This document shows positions 15,158 to 48,200 of a stretch of 64,000 bases of DNA, one piece after another. The notes below the pieces were generated by a model. That model was not told the origin of the DNA, searched no databases, and saw only the letters and a program-made list of their open reading frames with translations. The first letter of the stretch is position 1; every line of letters begins with the position of its first letter. Origin of the DNA: Branchiostoma floridae (Eukaryota; Chordata; Leptocardii; Amphioxiformes; Branchiostomatidae); the NCBI RefSeq assembly GCF_000003815.2, contig NC_049991.1:16724776-16788775 (forward strand), read 5' to 3'. Made by a program: the position numbers and the translations under genes.

Positions 15158-16966
15158 ATGTCGGACTCAGCGGCATCGCCCACCAAGGCCAAGAAGGCGA
15201 GGAAGCCCAAGGCACCCGCCAGTCATCCAAAGTACGCAGGGTTTTTACTAAACGTTTTCTCTTTTTTTTATGATGGTGATATTTTTCCGGGTGTTCTTGA
15301 CTTTTTTCGCGCTGTTTGATTTCTTTTTTTTTTCCAGCTGTTTTTTTTTTTTCAATCGAAATCCGTGAGCGGCTTCCCAGCTGTTTTAGTCTGGGATTAT
15401 CACAGCTGTTCGCTGGCTTTAAATATAAGCTGGCTATTTTCGCTTCTTTTTCCTTTTTTTCTTCTTCTCTATTTTGCTTTTTATGTTCCGAAGATAAGAG
15501 TGTTTCATTTAATTGGCTGATTTTTACTTTTCATTCTTCAATACAACAAATAATGCCGAAAGAAAAGGCAGGCCATTTTTGGAAAGCTTTTGACGGTTAT
15601 TTTCAATGCCAAACTGACTTGTAAATGAAATTTAGTGATTGAACATTGAATCTTTAAAATTATTACTAAATTGATACCTGCTTTTTGCCATGTAATTGAT
15701 TGATATTTATCTTATATGATATATTTCGTATCATTGATTTGTTGATTATTACTAATATGATTCCTGCTTTTTTGTCTTGTGTCTCGTAACGCGGATGTGA
15801 CCCGAATTTGACCTGTTTTTTTTCTTTGTCTAGGTACAACGAGATGATCAAGGCTGCCATCTCCAACCTGAAGGAGCGAGGCGGCTCCTCTCGACAGGCC
15901 ATACTCAAGTACATCCTGGCCAACTACAAGATCGACAACGCCAAGCAGGCCAACGTGCACCTCAAACTGGCGCTCAAGCGCATGGAGAAGTCCGGTGAGA
16001 ATGTGTTCATTTTCAATCCGCTTCCATAGTTTCCAAGGAGACGTGTCAGATGGATGAAAAATGAGAAGAATTTGGCCAAATAGGGACAAATAAGTTGCCA
16101 TGGGATTTCAGTCAGTCTTTTGCAGTCTATTCAGCTATTACCGCCGGGCAGTCAGTTCACTCCTAGGCCAATTAATTCCTACTAGACCACTTCCATTCTA
16201 CTAGCTAGGTCGCCGATCGCGCTGTGACCTCGCTGCAACCGATTGTTTTTGTGACCCTTGACTTCATAATGATTGCATGTAAAATATAAATGTATGGCTA
16301 AGAAAACAAAACCTTCATTCAAATAGATGGAATTTGTGGAGAGCTCTGGCACATCCGATCGTAGCGAGGTCGGCAGCCTGGTGGAAAATGTGATTACGTA
16401 TTCACTTTCATTTGGTCTATTGTGTAGACTTAGTGTGGACTACTCGTAAATGCCTATCTGTATGATAAAAGGTTGAAATTTCATTGCTATCAGAAGGCCC
16501 ATGATTGTACAACTAGAATTGAGACATTTTGATTTAATTTTGAATATCGCACATGCGAAACACTCTCTGACAATACATTTGTCGTACGTGGGCACGTTGC
16601 CAACCAGCATCTCCTTCTTGTATTGCAGGTGACCTGAAGCATGTCAGGGGAAAGGGTGCTTCCGGCTCCTTCAAGGTCGGAAAGGAGGAGAAGCCCAAGG
16701 TCAAGAAGGTGAAGAAGCCCAAGCCAGCCAAGAAGCCAGCGGCCAAGAAACCGAAAGCCAAGAAGGCCAAACCAGCCAAGAAGCCAGCCAAGAAGGCAGC
16801 CAAACCCAAGGCAAAGGCAGCCAAGAAGAGTCCGAAGAAGAAGCCCGCAGCCAAGAAGGCAGCAAAGAAGACGCCAACAAAGAAGCCCAAGGCAGCGAAA
16901 AAGCCAGCAAAGAAGGCAGCGAAGACCAAGGCGAAGAAAACAACAAAGAAGGCGGGAAAGAAGTGA
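15158..16966 (+). CDS. linker histone H1, H1.0-like, three exons
   Basis: Linker histone that binds nucleosomal entry/exit DNA and compacts chromatin. Exons by eye: 15158-15231, 15834-15994, 16629-16966; joined they give 190 aa with the frame kept across both GT-AG introns. Residues 1-22 are a short basic tail. Residues about 23-97 are the winged-helix globular domain, recognisable from SHPKYNEMI, GSSRQAILKYI and the terminal GKGASGSFKV. Residues 98-190 are almost only Lys, Ala and Pro, with repeated AKKP units and one SPKK motif. The HPKY/GSSRQ/KYI pattern resembles H1.0 and H5 more than the somatic replication-dependent H1s. Introns, an AATAAA signal and no visible histone stem-loop after the stop indicate a replacement-type, polyadenylated gene. 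Vertebrate H1.0 is intronless, so the two introns are notable. The start is the first ATG after the promoter. Confidence 0.9.
16190..16385. repeat. inverted-repeat element in H1 intron 2
   Basis: GCTGTGACCTCGCTGC near 16220 is mirrored by GTAGCGAGGTCGGCAGC near 16365. The left part (GACCTCGCTGC ... GACCCTTGA) recurs at 17686-17735, showing a dispersed family with a second, more decayed copy just downstream of the gene (perhaps 17686-18050). Confidence 0.5.
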
Positions 16967-29200: not shown

Positions 29201-32200
29201 AAATCTGCTGCTGTAGAATGGAAACGAGTCAGTGATGAAGTTCAGTGTAGTACAGTACAATGATGGATGTAGTGCACTATGGGAGGTGTGCTATAAACAT
29301 GCTCAATCAGACTGTGTGCATCCGTGCATGTCTTACACCTGCGCCCACAAGTCTGCGGGGAACATGGAATTCTTTCATCCATAACATTAAAGTCTACCAC
29401 ATAGAAAACATGGACATATGGAGGCAGACAATGGTTCTTTTCTTCCCTTTGATACCATAATATTGTACAATGTAAATTTAAAGATTTCTTTTGGTTCTGA
29501 ACATTCATAAAATTGTATATAAAGACCTGGCTATATTCTAGTATATGCATGGATAATTTGGTTCACTGCTTCTTTGTTTCGTGCTTCTGCCTCGCACATA
29601 AATATTGATACAACACCAATTTATTTTCTTGGTTATTAACATTTCAAGGTTATAAAATTGCAAGCGGACATTACTAAAGCAGATGACAACTTGAATATGA
29701 CCCTGCCATTCACAACAAAAAAGAAAGCAGCTGCTAGCAAGGCATTAACTTTTTCCTAAAGATGTGGTTTCCACTTGTTTTTACAGTTATGCGTATCTTT
29801 TTAATATCTTTTAAATAACCCAAAAAACGTTAAATTCATTTTGGTTCTGTAAATTGAAAAGAGTGAAGATTTAGCAATCCCCATCAACTCAAAAACACCC
29901 ATCTACCCCCAATACATTTTGGAGAAATGTGATGTACTTGTAAGTGGTAAACAGATGCTGTAATGATAACATTGTGTGTGTGATGTTTTTCCAGATTGGA
30001 GAGAGCTCAGACCAGGTGACAGACTGGGTGAAGATGTTACACAAAGCCATGCAGCTCAAACCTGGGCATGCAAGGGCATCCGTCACATGGTGGGTTTATA
30101 TTCACTACCCTGAAAAAATAGCCTTAGTCAAATTATACCTTACTAAGGAGGAAGAGTGGATAGAAAACGTCACTGTTCCTATTGGCAATTTCTTTGATGT
30201 TGACACTGATACTGTTTGGAAAACTGGTACAAATAGGACTTTCTTCAACTGTCCATGTCTAGAAATCAGATTGTTGTGGCCTGGCTTCAAAAGTAATACA
30301 GACATGTACAATTTGTCTACATGTGCAGTGTTTGTACCGGAATGTTCCACCTACATCCCCAGACTATTTTTAGGAAACTGAATTAGTCTGCATGGTAGAG
30401 CATACCAAGGAGGTTGACCTCCTTGCACATAAAAAGTGAAACAAAACAAAGATATAAAAACTATCAACATTTACTTAAATTCTATGATTGGGTAAGTTTC
30501 AAAGTTTCAAAATATTAATCTATCCACTATATTGTAAATTTTGTTTGTTGGCAATCAGCTTTGTAGTTTGAAAAGGCCCCAGTGAATGTTTTTTTCTTCT
30601 TATTTCTACCAGCTAATGCCTGATATCTAGTCTCTTAAGTGGGTGGATGGATCTACATGTAGTCTCCACATTGGAAAAATGGGTCATTAGAAAATGTATT
30701 ATTAGTAGTAATATTGCAGTACTGCATAGATAGAAAAAATCTGACTGTAGACTATGGCACATGTAGTAATGAACATGAAAGTCTGATACATCATGTGTGG
30801 TTGCCCAACAGGCATGACCTACCCAACATGACCCCCGAGCAGGTCCGCAAGTCTCTGTCCATCGAGAGGTCCAGTTCCACTGACTCCACCTCCCCCCTCC
30901 CCTCTGTGTCAAGCATGTCATCCAGGTAGGGGCTGTCTCATACCACATAGTTCAGTATTCAAATACAAAGTATTAAGAGTGATGGATGTCAGTCGAAAAA
31001 ATCTGGAAGTAAATCAATGTTTTATGCAGTTGTGGAGATGAATAATATTGTTTACCTGGATGTCTAACCTTCATAAAAACTATTTATCAAGTAATCAGTA
31101 GAATCAATATTTGATAATATGTCAGGTTAGGGGTCACCTGATGACACTAGTTACCATCCCACCATTTCCACGTCTCTACTCTGTGTCCGGTATATCCTCA
31201 CCATCACACACGGGCATGCCCCTAATATTTTTTGAAAAGTGTGGTTAGTTCTTTAATATGCATGGGGTGTGGCTGTCCTCAAACGTGTGACCTGATCGAT
31301 AGATATGATCATAATAGATACATGTAGCTTACTGTTGTGTTGCATGATTTCAGAGCAACTTTCTTACCCAGAACCTTGATAATCTCTAATCTCTAAAATT
31401 CAGAAGGTGCTATATTTCATGGTTAGATGATCATCAGATGATAGATTCATGTACCTTACTGCTGTTGTGTTGGATGACTTCAGAGCGACCTCCCTGTCCA
31501 GAACCTTGGGAATGAGTGGTTGGATATGATGATATACATGTTACTAAGCTTACTGCTGTTGTGTTGTATGACTTCAGAGCGACTTCCCTGTCCAGAACCT
31601 TGGGAATGAGTGGTTGGATATGATGATATACATGTTACTAAGCTTACTGCTGTTGTGTTGTATGACTTCAGAGCGACTTCCCTGTCCAGAACCTTGGGAA
31701 TGAGTGGTTGGATATGATGATATACATGTTACTAAGCTTACTGCTGTTGTGTTGTATGACTTCAGAGCGACTTCCCTGTCCAGAACCTTGGGAATGAGTG
31801 GTTGGATATGATGATATACATGTAGCTTACTGCTGTTGTGTTGTATGACTTCAGAGCGACTTCCCTGGCCAGTAACCTGAGCATGGACAGCGAGGGCAGC
31901 AGCCTGTACATGGAGGTCGGCGACCTCGCGGCGCGGGCCAGCGGGACCTCCCAGATCTCCTCCACCAGCAGCAGCTCCATGGAGATGGAGGACGGCGTCT
32001 ACGAAAAGATCGGGGTCAGTTTTCCTTACAAACTCTATTGTATACTTCCAAAATGGTCATTACGGAAAAGGTTATGACCATTGTGTTGTTCACTCTAGTA
32101 TATAGAGATCAGTGCGTCTTACAAAATCAATATATAGTCATTTATAACATTATAGAAAGGTAAATATTATGTTGTCCACTCCTGATAGTGTACGATGTCA

Positions 32201-37780: not shown

Positions 37781-40700
37781 TTACTTCTTCAGGAGCTGTT
37801 TTCTCTGCTGTTCTAGAAGCCCCTCCAAGTGGTCTGCTCTCTTCACTGCAGCCTGTGTGGCAGGAAAACAGAGACCACATGTTCTAACAACAGTTGGGTA
37901 ACCTCATTTGTAGCATTGGGAAAATGGCAGCTGCACCAAAATGGAATTTGAATAGTTTCAATTTTTCAGACCACTCCTGTAGACATATACTTTTTTTGTT
38001 CTTCCGTAAACTGCAAAGCATTCTATATCATTCTATTAAAGCATTCTAAGTTTGAAAACAGTCTGATACACATTAAGGTACGCAATACAGTGTTAAGTTT
38101 GCAGTTAAGTGACTGACATTTTGTACAACATGCAGGATGGTGAAATCTGGAAGTTGGCTGGTAAATGTGATTTATAACATGAAATTATTATAGTTATAAT
38201 CTAACATGTCAATGTATGGGTCTGACTCTATTTGGTTTAACTAACCAGCACGGCAGCTGTGATGTTACATGCATGCTATAGAAAATCATTTGGCCAACAT
38301 TTGCTTGTTACAAATTAAGAGTTATTCTTCAATCTACCATTTGAGTGAAGAAACCTACCTCATACTGTTTCCGCAGTTGGTTTACAGTGTCCTCTTTCTT
38401 CACTATGGCTGACTTTACTCTGCATGAAGCAAGTACAAACTATTTGTTATACAAGTGATCTACAATATCAATAGAAAAACTGTGAAATATCATTCTTTCT
38501 TAACTTTTTAAAGCCATGCTTCTTAAACTTTTCCCTGCCGAGGTAGGCATTCAGTTTTGCACTGGATATGGTATGTACTTTATTCAACATAATCAATAAA
38601 GTCAAAGAGAACTTTAACATTGACTTTATTCGAATTGCAACAGTTACAACTTATATCAAAGCTGAGGGAGAGGAAAACATGTGCTAACACATACACACCA
38701 TCTATTAACTACAACAACAGAACAAACAAAAATGAGTCAGACTTAATTTTAACAACATCCAAGTCATCTCTTTACTTGTTCCATTTCCTCAAAGGGAAAG
38801 GAAATACATGCAGCAGCAAAAAACAACATTATCACAAGAACAACAAAACCAGTACCCTTTATGTACTTCCTCCATCTCTTCCAAAGGGAAAAAATACATG
38901 ATGAGACAAAAAACAAACAACAAAACAGCAACAATGCTACCTTTTGTGTACTTCCTCCATCAGTGGGAGGGATGCTGCAAAGCTTTTTTCATCCAGTCTT
39001 AGATGTTACTAGTCCATTGTTTCTTTTGCCTCCCCCTTTCCCATGCCCCATCTACCTTTCCATGAAGGATAGCTTTAGAAAATCCATTTGACAGAGACAA
39101 AAATTTAACAACAAAACAGCAACAATTTCCCTACCTTTTGTGCACTTCCTCCATCTCCTCCTCCTTCTCCCTGGTGATGCGGTCCAGCTCCATCTTGTGC
39201 CGCGCCCGCATCTCAGACATCTCGTTCTTCACCCGCCGGTTCTCCTCCTCCGTGGCCACCAGACGGTCAGCGAACTCCTGACGGATGACCTCCGACATCT
39301 TGTTCCGCTCCTGGGTCAGCCTGTCTTTCACCTGTCAATCAAATATGAAAGATGATAAATATTGAATATTGAGGGGGGGGGGGGCAGTATTATCTGCCAC
39401 TACCTCCAGATAACCCCAATAGGGGCAAAGTTGGGGGAAGGTGAAATCCCCGGCTAAGGCGGAGAAGTTTCCGCCCTGGCACAGAGGACCCAACTGTGGG
39501 GGCTGTCATGACCAAGCCAGGCAGGGAGTTCCACTAAGGTACAGTTTGGGGAAAAAGGAATATTTTGTATTTGTCTGTTCATGCTAATAGGGGCTGTAGT
39601 TTGAGTTGGTGGCTCCCTCGGCCATGCCCTTGGGCTTGTTTGAGAAAACTAGTAGTGTCAATATTAATGTGGTTGTTTATAAGTTGGTAAAACATGATGT
39701 AGAACATGCAGTAACCTTGTTGATATCCTCCAGCTCCTGTTCCTTCTGTCTAAGCAGACCCTTCAGCCGAGCGTTCTCTCCCTCCACCTCGATAAGTTCT
39801 GCCTTCATCTCATTGTACTTGTCCATGGCTGTCCTCTCTGAGCGCTCCAGCTCCCTCATCTCTGCCTCGTACTTCTCTCTCATACGTCTGGGGGGACAAA
39901 CACACGGCCGTCAGCTCGTATGTTGTATAGGAAAACTCTACATATAAAAATCAAGGAACTGAATAAATTTCCTAAAGATTCAGATGCTTCAGATAGCATC
40001 TAATGTCTTTTAGGTGACTGAATTATGTTTCTCAGTTACAGATGAAAGATGGTGCATGATGTCTGGAACGTCTTCTTGCTCTTTGCAACATCCAGTTGCT
40101 TGATTTATTTATATTGTATATTATCATACATTAAATACAAAACAATCTACGTCCTTACTTCATCCTGTTCTCGGCCGCCCTCTCCACCTCTTCCCTCTGT
40201 GAGGAGGCGTCCTCGTCCAGCCTCTGTATGACCAGCTCGATCTCCTTGTCTCGGTCTCGCTTCACGTTCTCCTTCAACTCCCGCTCCTTCTGCATCAGCC
40301 AGGTATCCTGTTTCTTCATGTAGTTCTCCTCCCAGGCTTCCTTCTCTACCTTCAGTTTATCCTCAAGCTGTTTTACTTCAGCCTACAGAAACATTAAACA
40401 TCAAGGTAAACTCTAACTGTAACCCCAACCCTAACCCTTCTGTAGCAGGCCTAACCCTAACCCTAACCCTAGCCTTGACCCTCCCAGGCTTCCTTCTCCA
40501 CCTTCAGTTTATCCTCCAGCTGTTTCACTTCAGCCTACAGGAACAATCTTATTATTAGGTTTGCATGATGTACAAAATTAGCTGAGAACTACGAAGAACT
40601 CAAGAAAGAAGAAAAAAAAGTCATGACTACAAGTAGCAGAGTTATCAACTTCGGATAGAGGTGCTTAAAAATTCTAGTGTCATAGAAAGGCACGTATCAG

Positions 40701-43700
40701 TAGTAGAATCCTCACTACCGTTAGCTTTAACTATGCTTGCAGTCAGATATACAAAGGTCAGGTGTGACAAGTCTTTCTGTAATATAACCAGCTGTCGTTA
40801 TGCCTTGTGCCTGCAAAGTTGGTGTGCATTTCATGTGTTGGCGTAAATTTTGGCTATCTACAGTGTCTAGTTTAAGAAAAATAGCAATAATATTAGCAAA
40901 ATAGAAAGAAATAGTAGGATTATCTGAATGTAGTGGTGCGTACCTAAACTCATATTCAGGTTCAGGTCCAGCAGTTCAGGTTCAGGTCCGGACTTAAAGT
41001 CTGGACCTGAACCCATCATTGCATATTATGTGCACTAGAAATTGTTCTATTTTGAGGAGGAGGAGGGGGGGATGGTGCATATAAAATTGCATGTTAGCAT
41101 GAATTGAAATGCAATGTGAAAAATACACGCAAATTATACACAGCCAGTGTATACATGAAATGTTTTTTGTCTTTGTCCAGTGCAAATTTCACTGTCTATG
41201 GAAGGTTTTAGATGGTTTAGAATAAAAAAAAGGAACATAAGTGACAGATAGCTTTTTGCAAGTCTGGACTTGGCTCCGGACATTTAGGTTTTTTTTGGAC
41301 CTAAACATTTTTAGGTCCAATTCCAAGTCCGGGCTTTAGGTAGGAACCACTACTATTCAGTAAATACTGAACCAACATACAGCATGTCTTCTCTCCTGTT
41401 CATCCCGTGCCTTCTCATACTCCCTCCTCATGGTCTCGATAGCCTTGGAACTGGACTCCTCCAGCTGCTCTTTCATTCTGTCGATCTCTGCACGTTGTTT
41501 AGCTGCCTGTGTTGCTATTCTCTCCTTCTCTTCCTGAACTTCTGCATACAATCTGTGATGAGGATGGGGGAAAACAACTGATCTAATTGTCAATTTCTCG
41601 ACAAGTTTTCATGGTGAATGCTACAGTCAGTACCTTGTGAAAATCAGAGCATATAACCGAATAAGACATTCACTTCATGCATTCAAAGTTTTTCTCTGAT
41701 TCTATTAGATAAAAACATAAACTATAGTTTACCTTCTTCTTTGTTGCTGTAAACCTTGCTCTTCTTGTTCTGCCTGTTTCTCGTACCTGAAAATGACATT
41801 GAAAAGGGAATCAAATTTGTACCAAACTGGATCAGCAGCTCCCCCTAGTGTTCATTATCAGTACTGCAAGGTCACTGCACAGCCAAGTAACCATGCACAG
41901 GCAGCAAATGGACAAAAGTACACCTTACAAACTTTACCTCACACAACCTACGCATTATTTTTTCAAGTTCAACCAGCAAACTGAAAAGTTTTTTCTAAAT
42001 TTCTTTACCAGAGAAAATATTTCTAAACATTGTCATAACCTCTGGATACTTTTAGATTGATAACCCAGACCGTATCTCATGCCCCACCTCTGCTTAGCCA
42101 GTTCCCTCTCCCGGTTACAGGCAGACTCGATCTCCCTGGCCATCTGTTCCTTGATCTCCTCAGTCTGATGGATGAAGCGCCGGCTCGCTCGCTCGTCTGC
42201 CTCCAACAACTCCGCCTCGTGGATCGCCTTTATCTTCTTCATCTCCTGTTTGTGCTTGGCAATCAGTCTCTGGATCTCTGGCTCCAGACCTTTCACTGTC
42301 ATTTCCTGTCAGGTTTCAAAATGACACATGAGTTAAACTTGTCAATCTAAGGGTATGCACACATAACAATGTTAAAAGCGTTACTGTAAATTTGTCAATA
42401 GTGGATGCCTGAGTCAGACATGTATAACACGTATAGAAAATTTGATAAAAAACGTCAATTTCCAAGATAAAGTTGAAAGAAAAGATGAAGAACTTATTGC
42501 TTGGGAACATTTTGCAAATCTGCAGGAAAAAAGCAAAAAAAACATAATTACAGATTATCAGAATATTAATCATCCTATCATCCTATCCAGGGCCCCACTG
42601 TAAAGCAGTGTGATACACTGAGTTGGGCTACCCTGGCTAAAGAAAATAGAATAGAATAGAACAGATCATTCCTTTCAAATTCTGGTTGATTATCCCATAT
42701 CGTACTGTTTTTCTGACTTTTTACCTTGATCTTTTTTGTCTTCTCATCGATCCACTTCTCTCTCCTGAGTTTCTCAGCAGCTGCGTGCATGTCTTTAATT
42801 TTCTGTGACTCTTCATTATGCCTGGAGGAAAAACATTTTTTGTAACAATACAAATCTGCTCATTTGTTGATGATGCATGTATCTACAAAAAGAGTTTTCT
42901 GATCTTACTAGTAATTGTGTACATGTAAATTGTAAAAAGAAATTTTTGTCCCAAGATAAATTTTAACGTAGATACTAGAACAGTGCTGATGACTCAAAAT
43001 CATTGAAATAAAATGATAGCTTTCAGAAGACATAACAGTCACAATCTACTAAAAAATGTTAAAAGATATTGGCATAAATCACTACCCTTCTGAAGACTTT
43101 TTGAGTTTTTCTACACATTCCATCTATGTTTCCATGTATTTGCAAGACCTTTAGAATGCCAAGATAAAACTGCCACTAACTTGTCGCTCATCTCCTTGAT
43201 CCTCTTGCTGTACTTGGCATCCATGTCTTTCAGCTCCTTCACAACTCGCTCACACTTCTCACTCAGGGCCTTCTTATCATCAATCAACTGGAAGATATCA
43301 TAGACATACATAATTGTAAGGAAAATGTGTGCTGATATTTAGCATAGTACATCAGAGTATATTGTTTCTGACGAAGATTTTTGCCATAGCATATCAGGCT
43401 TTCTCCAGCGAGTGTTTAAATTTTAGACTGTTTTGAGACCACCTTAATGGCGAACTTGTAATAAACATGCAATCTAAATGGCAGTAGATTTTGAAGCTTT
43501 TATTCCTCCCCAAAGCACAACATCTTGTCGTATTACCTGTGTGGAGATAACTGTGGTATAAGCTTTATTTGTACAAATTTTGGCAGACAGTTTTATCTTT
43601 GCCAGGATTTGGGTCATTGGGGAATTTTTTTAACTTTCTAGTTTGCACCGAAACATAAAATCTTACTCTATTACTTGTGTCTCAATACATATGTGGTTCG

Positions 43701-45229
43701 AAACATCATACCGGCCTTACCTTCTAGTTTACACTGAAATATACAATCTTACTCTATTACTTGTGTCGTAATAAATATGTGGTTCTAACCATCATACCAG
43801 CCTTACCTGGTCAATAAATAGCAATGTGGAGTAATATTACTTTTGCGCAAATATTCCTAGACAGTCTTACCTGGTCGATGAAACCGAGGTGTCTCTTGAT
43901 GGTGGCCTCGTACTCCTCCTTCTGCACCTGGAGCCGATGTTTCATCTCCTTCTCTCCCTCCCGCGCATGGCGGATTGTCAGCTCTCTCTGCTGGTTCTGT
44001 GGACACATAAACATGTTTTATGAGCCGATGTTTCATCTCCTTCTCTCCCTCCCGCGCATGGCGGATTGTCAGCTCTCTCTGCTGGTTCTGTGGACACATA
44101 AACATGTTTTATGAGCCGATGTTTCATCTCCTTCTCTCCCTCCCGCGCATGGCGGATTGTCAGCTCTCTCTGCTGGTTCTGTGGACACACAAACATGTTT
44201 AATAAAAAACTGGCTTCTGCACCTGGAGCCGATGTTTCATCTCCTTCTCTCCCTCCCGCGCATGGCGGATTGTCAGCTCTCTCTGCTGGTTCTGTGGACA
44301 CACAAACATGTTTAATAAAAAACTGGCTTCTGCACCTGGAGCCGATGTTTCATCTCCTTCTCTCCCTCCCGCGCATGGCGGATTGTCAGCTCTCTCTGCT
44401 GGTTCTGTGGACACACAAACATGTTTAATAAAAAACTGGCTTCTGCACCTGTAGCCGATGTTTCATCTCCTTCTCTCCCTCCCGCGCATGGCGGATCGTC
44501 AGCTCTCTCTGCTGGTTCTGCAGCCACACAAACAGGTCTGGTAAAAACTGCTGTTTTCTGGTGCCTAACTCACCAGTGTTCACATTTTGCTTGGCACAAC
44601 TCACCAGCACCTTCTGCAGCATGGCTGTGGATCAGCAGCTCCCCCTGTTGTTCAATAGCGGCATTACAAAGCTTCAACCTCCAGAAGCTTGAGGGTTGTC
44701 TACAGCAACTACACTACAGTATAGTACAGCAACTCACCAGTGCCTTCGGCAGCATGGTTGTGAATCAGCAGCTCCCCCTATTGTCTAATGGCGGTATTAC
44801 AAGGCCTCAACCTCTAGAAACTTGAGGGCTGAATTTTCTTTCTGTCATTGTTGGGAAGCCCATGTTCCTTGTAACTCTGTCATCTTAAACTAAAGAAAGT
44901 CAGATTTGTTTAATTGCAAAGTGAACTTTATGTCCAACCCAACAAGCAAACTCCTGTTCCTAGGATGATGGGAATTGTCCTGGAGATGGCCTGGTAGAAA
45001 CTTTGTTGTTTGCTTGAACAAATAATCCCTGACTCACCAGTGCCTTCTGCAGCATGGCCACGGAGCGCTGTCTCTCCTCCAGCTCCAGCCGCTGTTTCAG
45101 CATCTCGCTGGCCACCTCGGACGCCGTGGCGGAGGCCTGCTCCATCTGAGCTATCTCTTCTGCTGAGGGGACCAGCAGGACAGGTGCAGCCGCTGCAGAG
45201 GTGTCATCACGGGGGGTGCTCTCTACAGA
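37781..45229 (-). CDS. CEP131: CEP131 exons 12-23: C-terminal coiled coil
   Basis: Residues 589-1151, almost continuous heptad-type coiled coil rich in Glu, Lys, Arg, Gln and Leu, as in the human C-terminal half that mediates dimerisation and satellite targeting. Exons 12, 13 and 19 have copies of their splice junctions in neighbouring introns. The protein ends ...EQQRKQLLKK, at the position expected from vertebrates. Confidence 0.9.
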
Positions 45230-48200
45230 CTGGGGAGGGGGGGCAGGAGAGTACATGTTCAAAAAAAGTAGTAAGCTACTGGTATTGAATCTGCCTCTGG
45301 ACCAAAATGTTCAGAACATTTATGAGGCCTGCTCCATCTGAGCGATCTCTTCAGCTGAGGGAACCAGCAGGAAGGGTGCCGCCGCTGCAGAGGTGTCATC
45401 ATGAGGGGTGCTTTCTACAGACTGGGGAGGGAGGGGGGCAGCAAGAGAGCAGATGTTCAAAACATTTAATATCCACATAATTAGCTCTTCTGTGAACTGA
45501 GCTGGCTTGAGACTACTTTCACTATAGTAATATACAGGAACATGAGATTCAAATAAAATTAGGATGCATCTACAATGCACAGTCACTTGACACAAACTGA
45601 AGGCAATGTTTTCTGTAACAAGGTGTATCAATTCATAGTCATATTAACCCAAAACATTTACAAATAGTTAGGAGTAAAACTGATAGTAGTAAAACATTGG
45701 AGGGTAGAAATCTAACCTTTGTGACCTGGCTAGTGACCTGACTGATGACCTCATCATCAGCCTTCTCCACTTCATCCAGGAAGGACATGATGGACCTGAG
45801 GAAGGCATCAGTTCATCATTTTAGGTTATAGAAGGAGTTTGTGACAAAACAAGACTTTTTACTTTCTGAAGATACTAGTGAAAGGTGTATATCCTGTCAA
45901 TGCTACTTAGGTAACCTGTTGACTTAGTCCTGTAATATTATTGTTGTTGTAAATGATAACAATGAATAATGATCTTTATTGTATTTATGCGCTATCAGGC
46001 AAAGTATAGGCATTCAAATATAAATTTTGTATTAACGTACACATAGTGACAGGACATCTAATATCAATCTAAGACGTAGGTCCAAAAACTACTTCAATAC
46101 ACAGGATTGGCTCCTTCCAGTATAAGTCATGTACAACACTGCATTTATGAATCACCATTACATTTATACCATTGAAATTTTCCCACTTGTATAGATTAAT
46201 AAGAAATAGTATACAATAGCGTTCTGACCTGAGCTTGTCCTCCGTGAGCATGACCCCAGGTAACCCACTGGTGGAAGTCCTGGGAGGCTGGTTCAGCTTT
46301 TCCAGCTTCTCTGATGACAGGTACCCGTTATCCTTCTCCTCATCACTACCTGGGGTCGCACATCGGTAAAATGATTAACATCGGTTCACTTTGTCTTACC
46401 ATATGAGCTGTCTAAACATGATTTACACATGAGCAACATTTGTATACAATCCCTATGAGTTAGTGAGTTTGGCATGTTCAACTTTTTTTTTCAGTAAGAT
46501 GTATTGAATTGTTCTGCTGTATTGAATTGTTCTACCAGTTCATTCTTGTGATGCTAAAGAAGAGCAATGGATGTCACTTGAAACGTCCAGAAGTAAATCT
46601 AGTTTATCCCAGTTGTAGAGACTGAGTTGTTATTAAAAATTGTCATTACCTGAATGTCTAACCCTCATAAACGTATAATTGTTAAAATGACTTCATTCTC
46701 ATGTCTCAAATCAAAAATAGTGTTTAACGTACATGTATGAAACTCATCGTGTTGAACATAATACACTGTATGTGTAAATGCACACCATGAACTGTATATG
46801 AACCCTTTCCCTCACCCCAGGCTCGACTCTTCCTCGGTGTGGGGAACTTCTCAGGCTCCTCCTCAAGCATCTTAATGGTGTCCAGAAGGTCGTTCAAGGT
46901 CGTCTTAGTCTTGCTGTCCGTCAGAGTGGTGAGGTCGTCCTTGTCTGTCTCGTCCTGTGTGTCAACCTCTGGGGCTGCTGTGGCACCCTGGGGCTCCTGG
47001 GAGTAAAGAATCAATCAACCAATCAATAATCAATCAATCGAAGAATCAATTTGTCAATCAATCAATCAATAAATAAACAAATCAATCAATTGCTTAAATC
47101 AATTTACATTAGATAGCTGCATTACCCTTAGCTGCTCTACTGATGACATGAGATAAAAACCTAAAACAAAAATGGAGCTGAAAATGTGTTTAAAGTACAC
47201 TATTCATACAATGTTTAAGTGTGAGACATTTCAGCTTTTAAAATGATGGGTGTATCCACTTAGCTCTGCTCTTCATTTGACTTACAGTAAACTACTTTCC
47301 CACATTAGACTGTTCCTCTATTTGAAATAGACTAGCCTATACAATTAGTTCAGGACTATGTCCGTGTATGTTTCATCTTAAACATTTTGTTGTTTGCAGT
47401 TTGTAGGCTAATGTTTTCTGATCAGGACTTACATCGAATATGTCGTCCACCTTGCGTATGGTACTGGATGTGCCGGGTCTCTTCTGTGGTGATGCTCCGA
47501 CCTCCGATTCCGTTATCTCGCTATCGCTCTCAGAACCTGCCTTTTTCACGGGCGACGCCCTTTTCTTGGTCTTCACCTTGGGTTTTGCTGAAGTTGGTCT
47601 GGACACCTTTTTTGTGACTTTACCACTGGGCTGTAGAAACGTGATCTCTCCCTCGGGCTTCTGTTTGGGCTCTGCTCGTTTTTCTTCCCTCTTTTTCTGT
47701 AGCTCCTGAGGGTTTAAAAATTATGTAGAATGATTCAAAATATCAAGAATTATTGAAAGGAGATAGTACAGGCCTCAGTATACCTGTCCAGTTCTTATCT
47801 CAAGAAAGGATTGGGAAATATTATGTAAATTTTGGGCTAAACCATTTCATTTCAAATTTCTGCATTATAAACAGTTAATTGCATAAAATGAATGACCAAG
47901 TCCGCACACACTCACTGTGCGGTCATTGACATGGGATATGATACTAATAGAGTGGAACAGGCAAATGCAGGTCTAAAACAAAGAATTATTTACACTTAAA
48001 CACTGGGGGATGAACCAAACCTGAATGGCTGCTTGTCTGGCCTGTCTCTCTTTCTCCTCCCTCCTTCTTCTCTTTTCTTCCTCCTGTTTCCTTCTGTCCT
48101 CCATCTCCTGCATTCTCCTGTTCTGTTCTTTCCTCATCATCTCCTCCCTCTCCTCTCTCTTCTGTGTCAGCAGTCGTTTCACCGTCTCCTCACTGTCTCT

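Follow-up and report, generated by a model that had tools for sequence, protein, structure and literature searches.

Mirages are minisatellite-like duplications of intron-exon boundaries, a lancelet phenomenon described at Adh in 2002 (Canestro et al., via PMC3087553). Two globin genes provide the closest described systems: BflGb6 contains 150-160-bp repeats made up of the intron end and the start of exon 2, and BflGb9 contains a 157-bp duplicate of the 3' boundary of exon 2 (PMC3087553). The same report describes BflGb6 haplotypes that differ in copy number, presents RT-PCR data from Adh3 and globins suggesting that mirages leave splicing undisturbed, and proposes mirages as raw material for new introns (PMC3087553). 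Repeats of 60 and 108 bp that carry splice sites were also reported in PGBD5, where the authors excluded an annotated extra exon (PMC3902484). Neither a CEP131 mirage nor a genome-wide mirage survey was found in the literature that was searched, which was made up of open-licence papers.

The window studied here is a stretch of 64,000 nucleotides from Branchiostoma floridae, part of contig C13 in the one assembly that was searched (513,431,437 bp, 431 contigs). Its minus strand carries exons that match human CEP131 in collinear order, exon 13 at 59.5% identity. Pfam and PDB matches for this gene are weak or irrelevant, so that its identity is based on the human protein; the gene had already been called CEP131 in the earlier note, and this call is probably right. 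Because similarity to this human sequence also defined the exon cores, the positions of some edges are approximate. The exon number 13 follows the numbering of the earlier note. The elements of the exon 13 acceptor region are the following, a slash marking the exon-intron junction.

43871..43996, minus strand: true exon 13 of CEP131, 126 bp, 42 codons (NQQRELTIRH...GFIDQ), acceptor before 43996 and donor CAG/GTAAGA after 43871
44022..44087, minus strand: decoy 1, acceptor and first 66 exon bases, 91-bp unit, same as the true exon start
44113..44178, minus strand: decoy 2, acceptor and first 66 exon bases, 91-bp unit
44214..44291, minus strand: decoy 3, acceptor and first 78 exon bases, 113-bp unit, including a weak CAG/GTGCAG
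44327..44404, minus strand: decoy 4, acceptor and first 78 exon bases, 113-bp unit, including a weak CAG/GTGCAG
44440..44517, minus strand: decoy 5, the outermost, with a diverged acceptor flank (ctgcag); its first 66 exon bases differ from the true exon by two silent changes

The five copies of the exon 13 acceptor and exon start that had been claimed for the preceding intron are indeed present. Six AG/AACCAGCAG acceptors follow each other on the minus strand, five decoys (44517, 44404, 44291, 44178 and 44087) and the true site (43996), with spacings of 113, 113, 113, 91 and 91 bases from the outermost decoy to the true acceptor. The 113-base units consist of 78 exon and 35 intron bases and the 91-base units of 66 exon and 25 intron bases, and Tandem Repeats Finder reports 91 bp x 3.0 (99% matches) and 113 bp x 3.7 (98%). 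The statement that each copy holds at least 69 coding bases is thus true of the three 113-bp decoys (78) and false for the two 91-bp decoys (66), whereas the full exon is reached, as stated, only from the last copy (43996). Such repeats do not arise by chance, a conclusion drawn from their length and identity rather than from a computed expectation. Over 22 intron and 66 exon bases, decoy 44087 does not differ from the true site, decoys 44178, 44291 and 44404 show one intronic difference each, and the outermost decoy 44517 shows eight differences, two of them exonic and both silent. The inner copies are therefore homogenised and the outer copy has diverged, a gradient that we infer to be a product of unequal exchange.

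The array was compared with the described mirages through ten globin exon regions used as a positive control. One of them (L038) repeats an intron end together with the following exon start in units of 150-158 bp, and in another (L034) a 157-bp stretch at the 3' edge of an exon is duplicated; these match BflGb6 and BflGb9 respectively, the spacing of the latter being reproduced exactly. The host is thus a cephalochordate whose globin mirages are recovered with matching spacing; a search of the genome for the GFP family gave no match, and likewise none in 14 controls. As in the globin genes, the tandem repeats of CEP131 span an intron-exon boundary including its splice signal (an intron end plus exon start, or an exon end plus donor, duplicated inside the intron), AG or GT is retained in many copies, and the units at the cluster boundary escape homogenisation. 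The true exon 13 acceptor lies outermost with respect to the intron and the decoys lie within it. Since the globin loci reproduce the published mirages, the CEP131 array can be placed in a known kind, and its presentation as the oddity of a single gene is contradicted. On its sequence features, the array is very probably a lancelet mirage, that is, a minisatellite generated by the repeated tandem duplication of an intron-exon boundary; it would be spliced by exon definition and turned over by unequal exchange. Boundary duplications would grow into the intron, leaving the true splice site outermost and next to its own exon; unequal exchange would add copies, remove them and keep them alike, and other haplotypes probably contributed some of their divergence. 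Among the other described systems, the Adh3 mirages differ from CEP131 by their units of 10-72 bp (PMC3087553). PGBD5 resembles it in its 108-bp units with splice sites, but it is another gene and its repeats are imperfect and of assembly-dependent number (PMC3902484).

This last point bears on whether the array could be a product of misassembly or of collapsed alleles. The PGBD5 repeat numbers vary between assemblies (7 vs 2 and 6 vs 3; PMC3902484), one BflGb6 haplotype was judged to be misassembled in the draft genome (PMC3087553), and the copy number in CEP131 is known from one assembly. Nevertheless, an artefact accounts poorly for the presence of two unit lengths and for an orderly gradient of divergence, and the globin mirages recur in the same assembly at their published spacing. 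A whole-genome search, in which only the best candidates were scored, also found the exon 13 array in a single place. We therefore consider this explanation extremely unlikely.

Boundary copies are not restricted to the exon 13 acceptor. They were detected at 5 of the 34 edges of 17 CEP131 exon cores (E<=1e-3), to which a weaker copy of the exon 13 donor, a 21-base repeat, can be added. The corresponding elements are listed below.

45038..45229, minus strand: true exon 12, 192 bp, donor CTG/GTGAGT after 45038
44732..44757, minus strand: decoy exon 12 end and donor, GCACTG/GTGAGT, last exon base 44738
44599..44625, minus strand: second decoy exon 12 end and donor, GTGCTG/GTGAGT, last exon base 44605
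44574, minus strand: third donor-like site, ACACTG/GTGAGT
45324..45462, minus strand: decoy exon 12 acceptor and first 98 exon bases, in intron 11
43633..43818, minus strand: intron 13 repeats of the exon 13 donor region, CAG/GTAAGG at 43807, AAG/GTAAGG at 43721 and a dead copy at 43635
40480..40545, minus strand: decoy start of a downstream CEP131 exon, true edge 40382
38853..38961, minus strand: two decoys of a downstream CEP131 donor, true edge 39135

The exon 13 donor copies are tied to the true donor only by the 21-base repeat (86%, 43798-43818), beyond which there is an 86-base duplication. The CEP131 array would be a new, well-developed mirage that differs from BflGb6 and BflGb9 in its shorter units (91 and 113 bp) and in having copies of both edges of two consecutive exons, 12 and 13, although one of these four edges is matched weakly. 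Within CEP131, tandem-repeat clusters show no significant preference for exon edges; an edge lies in 4 of the 7 clusters, against 3.4 expected at random (P 0.47). A stretch of 24-30 bases around AGGGGGAGCTGCTGATCC occurs at 41828-41857, 44628-44657 and 44761-44784, once upstream of a CEP131 exon and twice in intron 12 beside donor decoys. It is similar to the CTCF consensus and may be a dispersed repeat.

The presence of so many splice sites raises the question of how the decoys are ignored, which the earlier note fairly asked. Judged with approximate textbook matrices, which are rough, the true exon 13 acceptor scores 2.3 and its five decoys 2.3-3.5, and the true exon 12 donor and its three decoys all score 7.0. 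Since the decoys score as well as the true sites, strength cannot reject them, whereas exon definition could. Among the 70 GT dinucleotides in 45229-43861, exactly five score 7.0, namely both true donors and the three donor decoys of exon 12. Each of these decoys lies upstream of the decoy acceptors; the inward growth of mirages would account for this order of true donor, decoy donors, decoy acceptors and true acceptor along intron 12. From the outermost decoy acceptor to the true donor at 43871, the only sites above 0 are four GTGCAG sites that score 1.6 each. Intron 12 measures 1041 bases by these edges and the other flanking introns roughly 500 or more, an approximate figure; where flanking introns are large, the sites closest across the exon are reported to be preferred (PMC9225289). 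Exon 13 would accordingly be defined, we infer, as the shortest unit from an acceptor to its only strong donor (43871), in which case 43996 would beat equally strong but more distant decoys. Messengers with exons extended to a decoy would be frame-shifted or stopped and would be removed: extending exon 13 to 44087 shifts the frame, extending it to any of the other four acceptors introduces a stop, and so does extending exon 12 to any of its three decoy donors. Exon definition is thus a candidate for a sufficient answer, but taken alone it is not decisive, because the use of decoy 44087 would give an exon of just 217 bases. Duplicated splice sites of equal strength across one intron make natural tests of spliceosome choice where the sequence cannot tell.

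Two functional roles for the copies deserve consideration. One possibility is that they constitute a poison or rate-setting device, in which the occasional use of a decoy yields frame-broken messengers and lowers the output of CEP131. All five acceptor extensions and all three exon 12 donor extensions have the required effect on the frame. Nevertheless, typical poison exons are conserved. The copy number of another mirage, BflGb6, is reported to vary between haplotypes (PMC3087553), and we regard such a device as quite unlikely. Alternatively, the 113-bp copies could act as alternative 69-base cassette exons that lengthen the coiled coil by 23, 46 or 69 residues. The CAG/GTGCAG on which the earlier note based this idea is indeed found in each 113-bp copy (the last exon base being 44449, 44336 or 44223), so that all three have both an AG and a GT, and the arithmetic of an in-frame cassette of 69 bases and 23 residues is correct. 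Yet the rough matrix gives its GT a score of 1.6, the true donors reaching 7.0, the same site inside the true exon (43928) must be ignored, and 23 is not a multiple of 7, so that an insert would be expected to shift the heptad phase. Moreover, human CEP131 is matched across the exon 12-13 junction with nothing inserted. The use of cassettes is therefore unsupported here and appears very unlikely, although one further argument for it comes from the differences between decoys and exons discussed below.

Other arrays were found in the window and elsewhere in the genome. The second array of the window has the following position.

31300..31878, plus strand: array with a 94-bp unit, 4.6 copies by Tandem Repeats Finder at 31455-31878 plus one degenerate copy

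It contains copies of a gacttcag acceptor and ends at a probable plus-strand exon start near 31851, which makes it a probable second mirage, belonging to a neighbouring plus-strand gene. An independent mirage lies in a kinesin gene on contig C2 (L024, 989-1403), presumably KIF2-like, in which the start of a P-loop exon has two decoys. The decoy stretches of this gene each end before GTATAT, which would give a 99-base in-frame unit (counted by hand for the first decoy only). When profile matches were read by eye, at least one array was seen in 134 kinesin matches (122 of 191 candidates scored) and none in 148 myosin matches (65 of 347 candidates scored), both counts being lower bounds as some matches cross introns and could hide arrays. 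At the DNA level, a single array was detected among 31 exons from six kinesin loci, of which L024 was picked because its array was already visible, and 2 of 10 globin exon regions (10 of 13 matches examined) have repeats overlapping the exon core. Two further globin regions have tandem repeats outside the matched exon core (L033 76-390 and L037 851-1047).

The differences between decoys and true exons are mostly silent. Across eight boundary arrays from four genes (five arrays from CEP131, one from the KIF2-like kinesin and two from globins), 41 distinct base differences are silent and 13 change an amino acid. The sample is small, changes within an array are not independent, and each base was classified by the codon of the true exon. 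Neither the exon 13 donor copies nor the array at 31300-31878 entered the count, their frame or exon length being insufficient. CEP131 contributes 15:4 silent to amino-acid changes and the other genes 26:9, including a kinesin array found by protein search, which favours few amino-acid changes. A decoy that evolves neutrally and a true exon that accepts silent changes alone, at equal rates, should yield 40.5% silent differences (P 1.4e-7), and decoy changes by themselves would give 25%. The two wrong reading frames of the same sequences give 10:42 and 7:45, so that composition does not explain the bias; one of the eight arrays, the exon 12 donor copies, runs counter to it (1:2). Such a bias is unlike what the plain decay of unused copies would predict.

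Mostly silent differences are what coding sequence would show, which is the further argument for cassette exons. Nevertheless, the same bias is found in the exon 12 acceptor decoy, which runs into TCA TAA (7:2), and at BflGb6 (10:5), whose splicing is reported to be regular (PMC3087553). Exchange with divergent haplotypes is our preferred, though unproven, explanation of the bias. Pooled silent divergence of the decoys is about 0.30, distinct changes being counted over several decoys together, with dN/dS of about 0.11. Published values include an allelic silent divergence of 0.070-0.075 and dN/dS of 0.067-0.089 in the lancelet of one study (PMC4284660) and a silent pi of 0.0397 in B. floridae (PMC12862219); the silent divergence of the decoys is several times these values and their dN/dS is close. 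The intronic parts of the units diverge by 0-17%, below the silent exon sites, although local alignment trims the worst ends. This lower intronic divergence is explained well neither by haplotype exchange nor by coding use of the decoys. A tentative reading, which may well prove wrong, is that the decoys are not decaying junk but that the arrays are exchange points for divergent haplotypes, storing silent versions of exon edges that could return to the gene, or, less likely, that decoys are sometimes translated. The coding-like pattern would then mean that decoy and exon had diverged largely at a time when both were coding, and decoys that are themselves coding are the less likely version because the exon 12 decoy, with its stop and no plausible donor, and the regularly spliced BflGb6 share the bias. 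This genome is one of the most polymorphic among animals, and the silent bias is the part of these results most worth following: if it were genome-wide, it would reveal the mode of turnover of the arrays and show that sequence passes between them and working exons.

Tandem duplications in general are widespread, occurring in 18 of 22 loci in a survey of 220 kb of genome pieces (20 random and two window-flanking loci, of which five contain over 1,000 N) that was made without gene models and therefore counts duplications irrespective of exons. The most, seven separate clusters in 10 kb, were found in one locus of contig C7 (7110710-7120709). Within the window, a linker histone H1 gene lies at 15790-16963; its globular domain is recognised by Pfam (E 2.1e-20), and its lysine-rich tail, a separate stretch without a Pfam match, contains internal short repeats.
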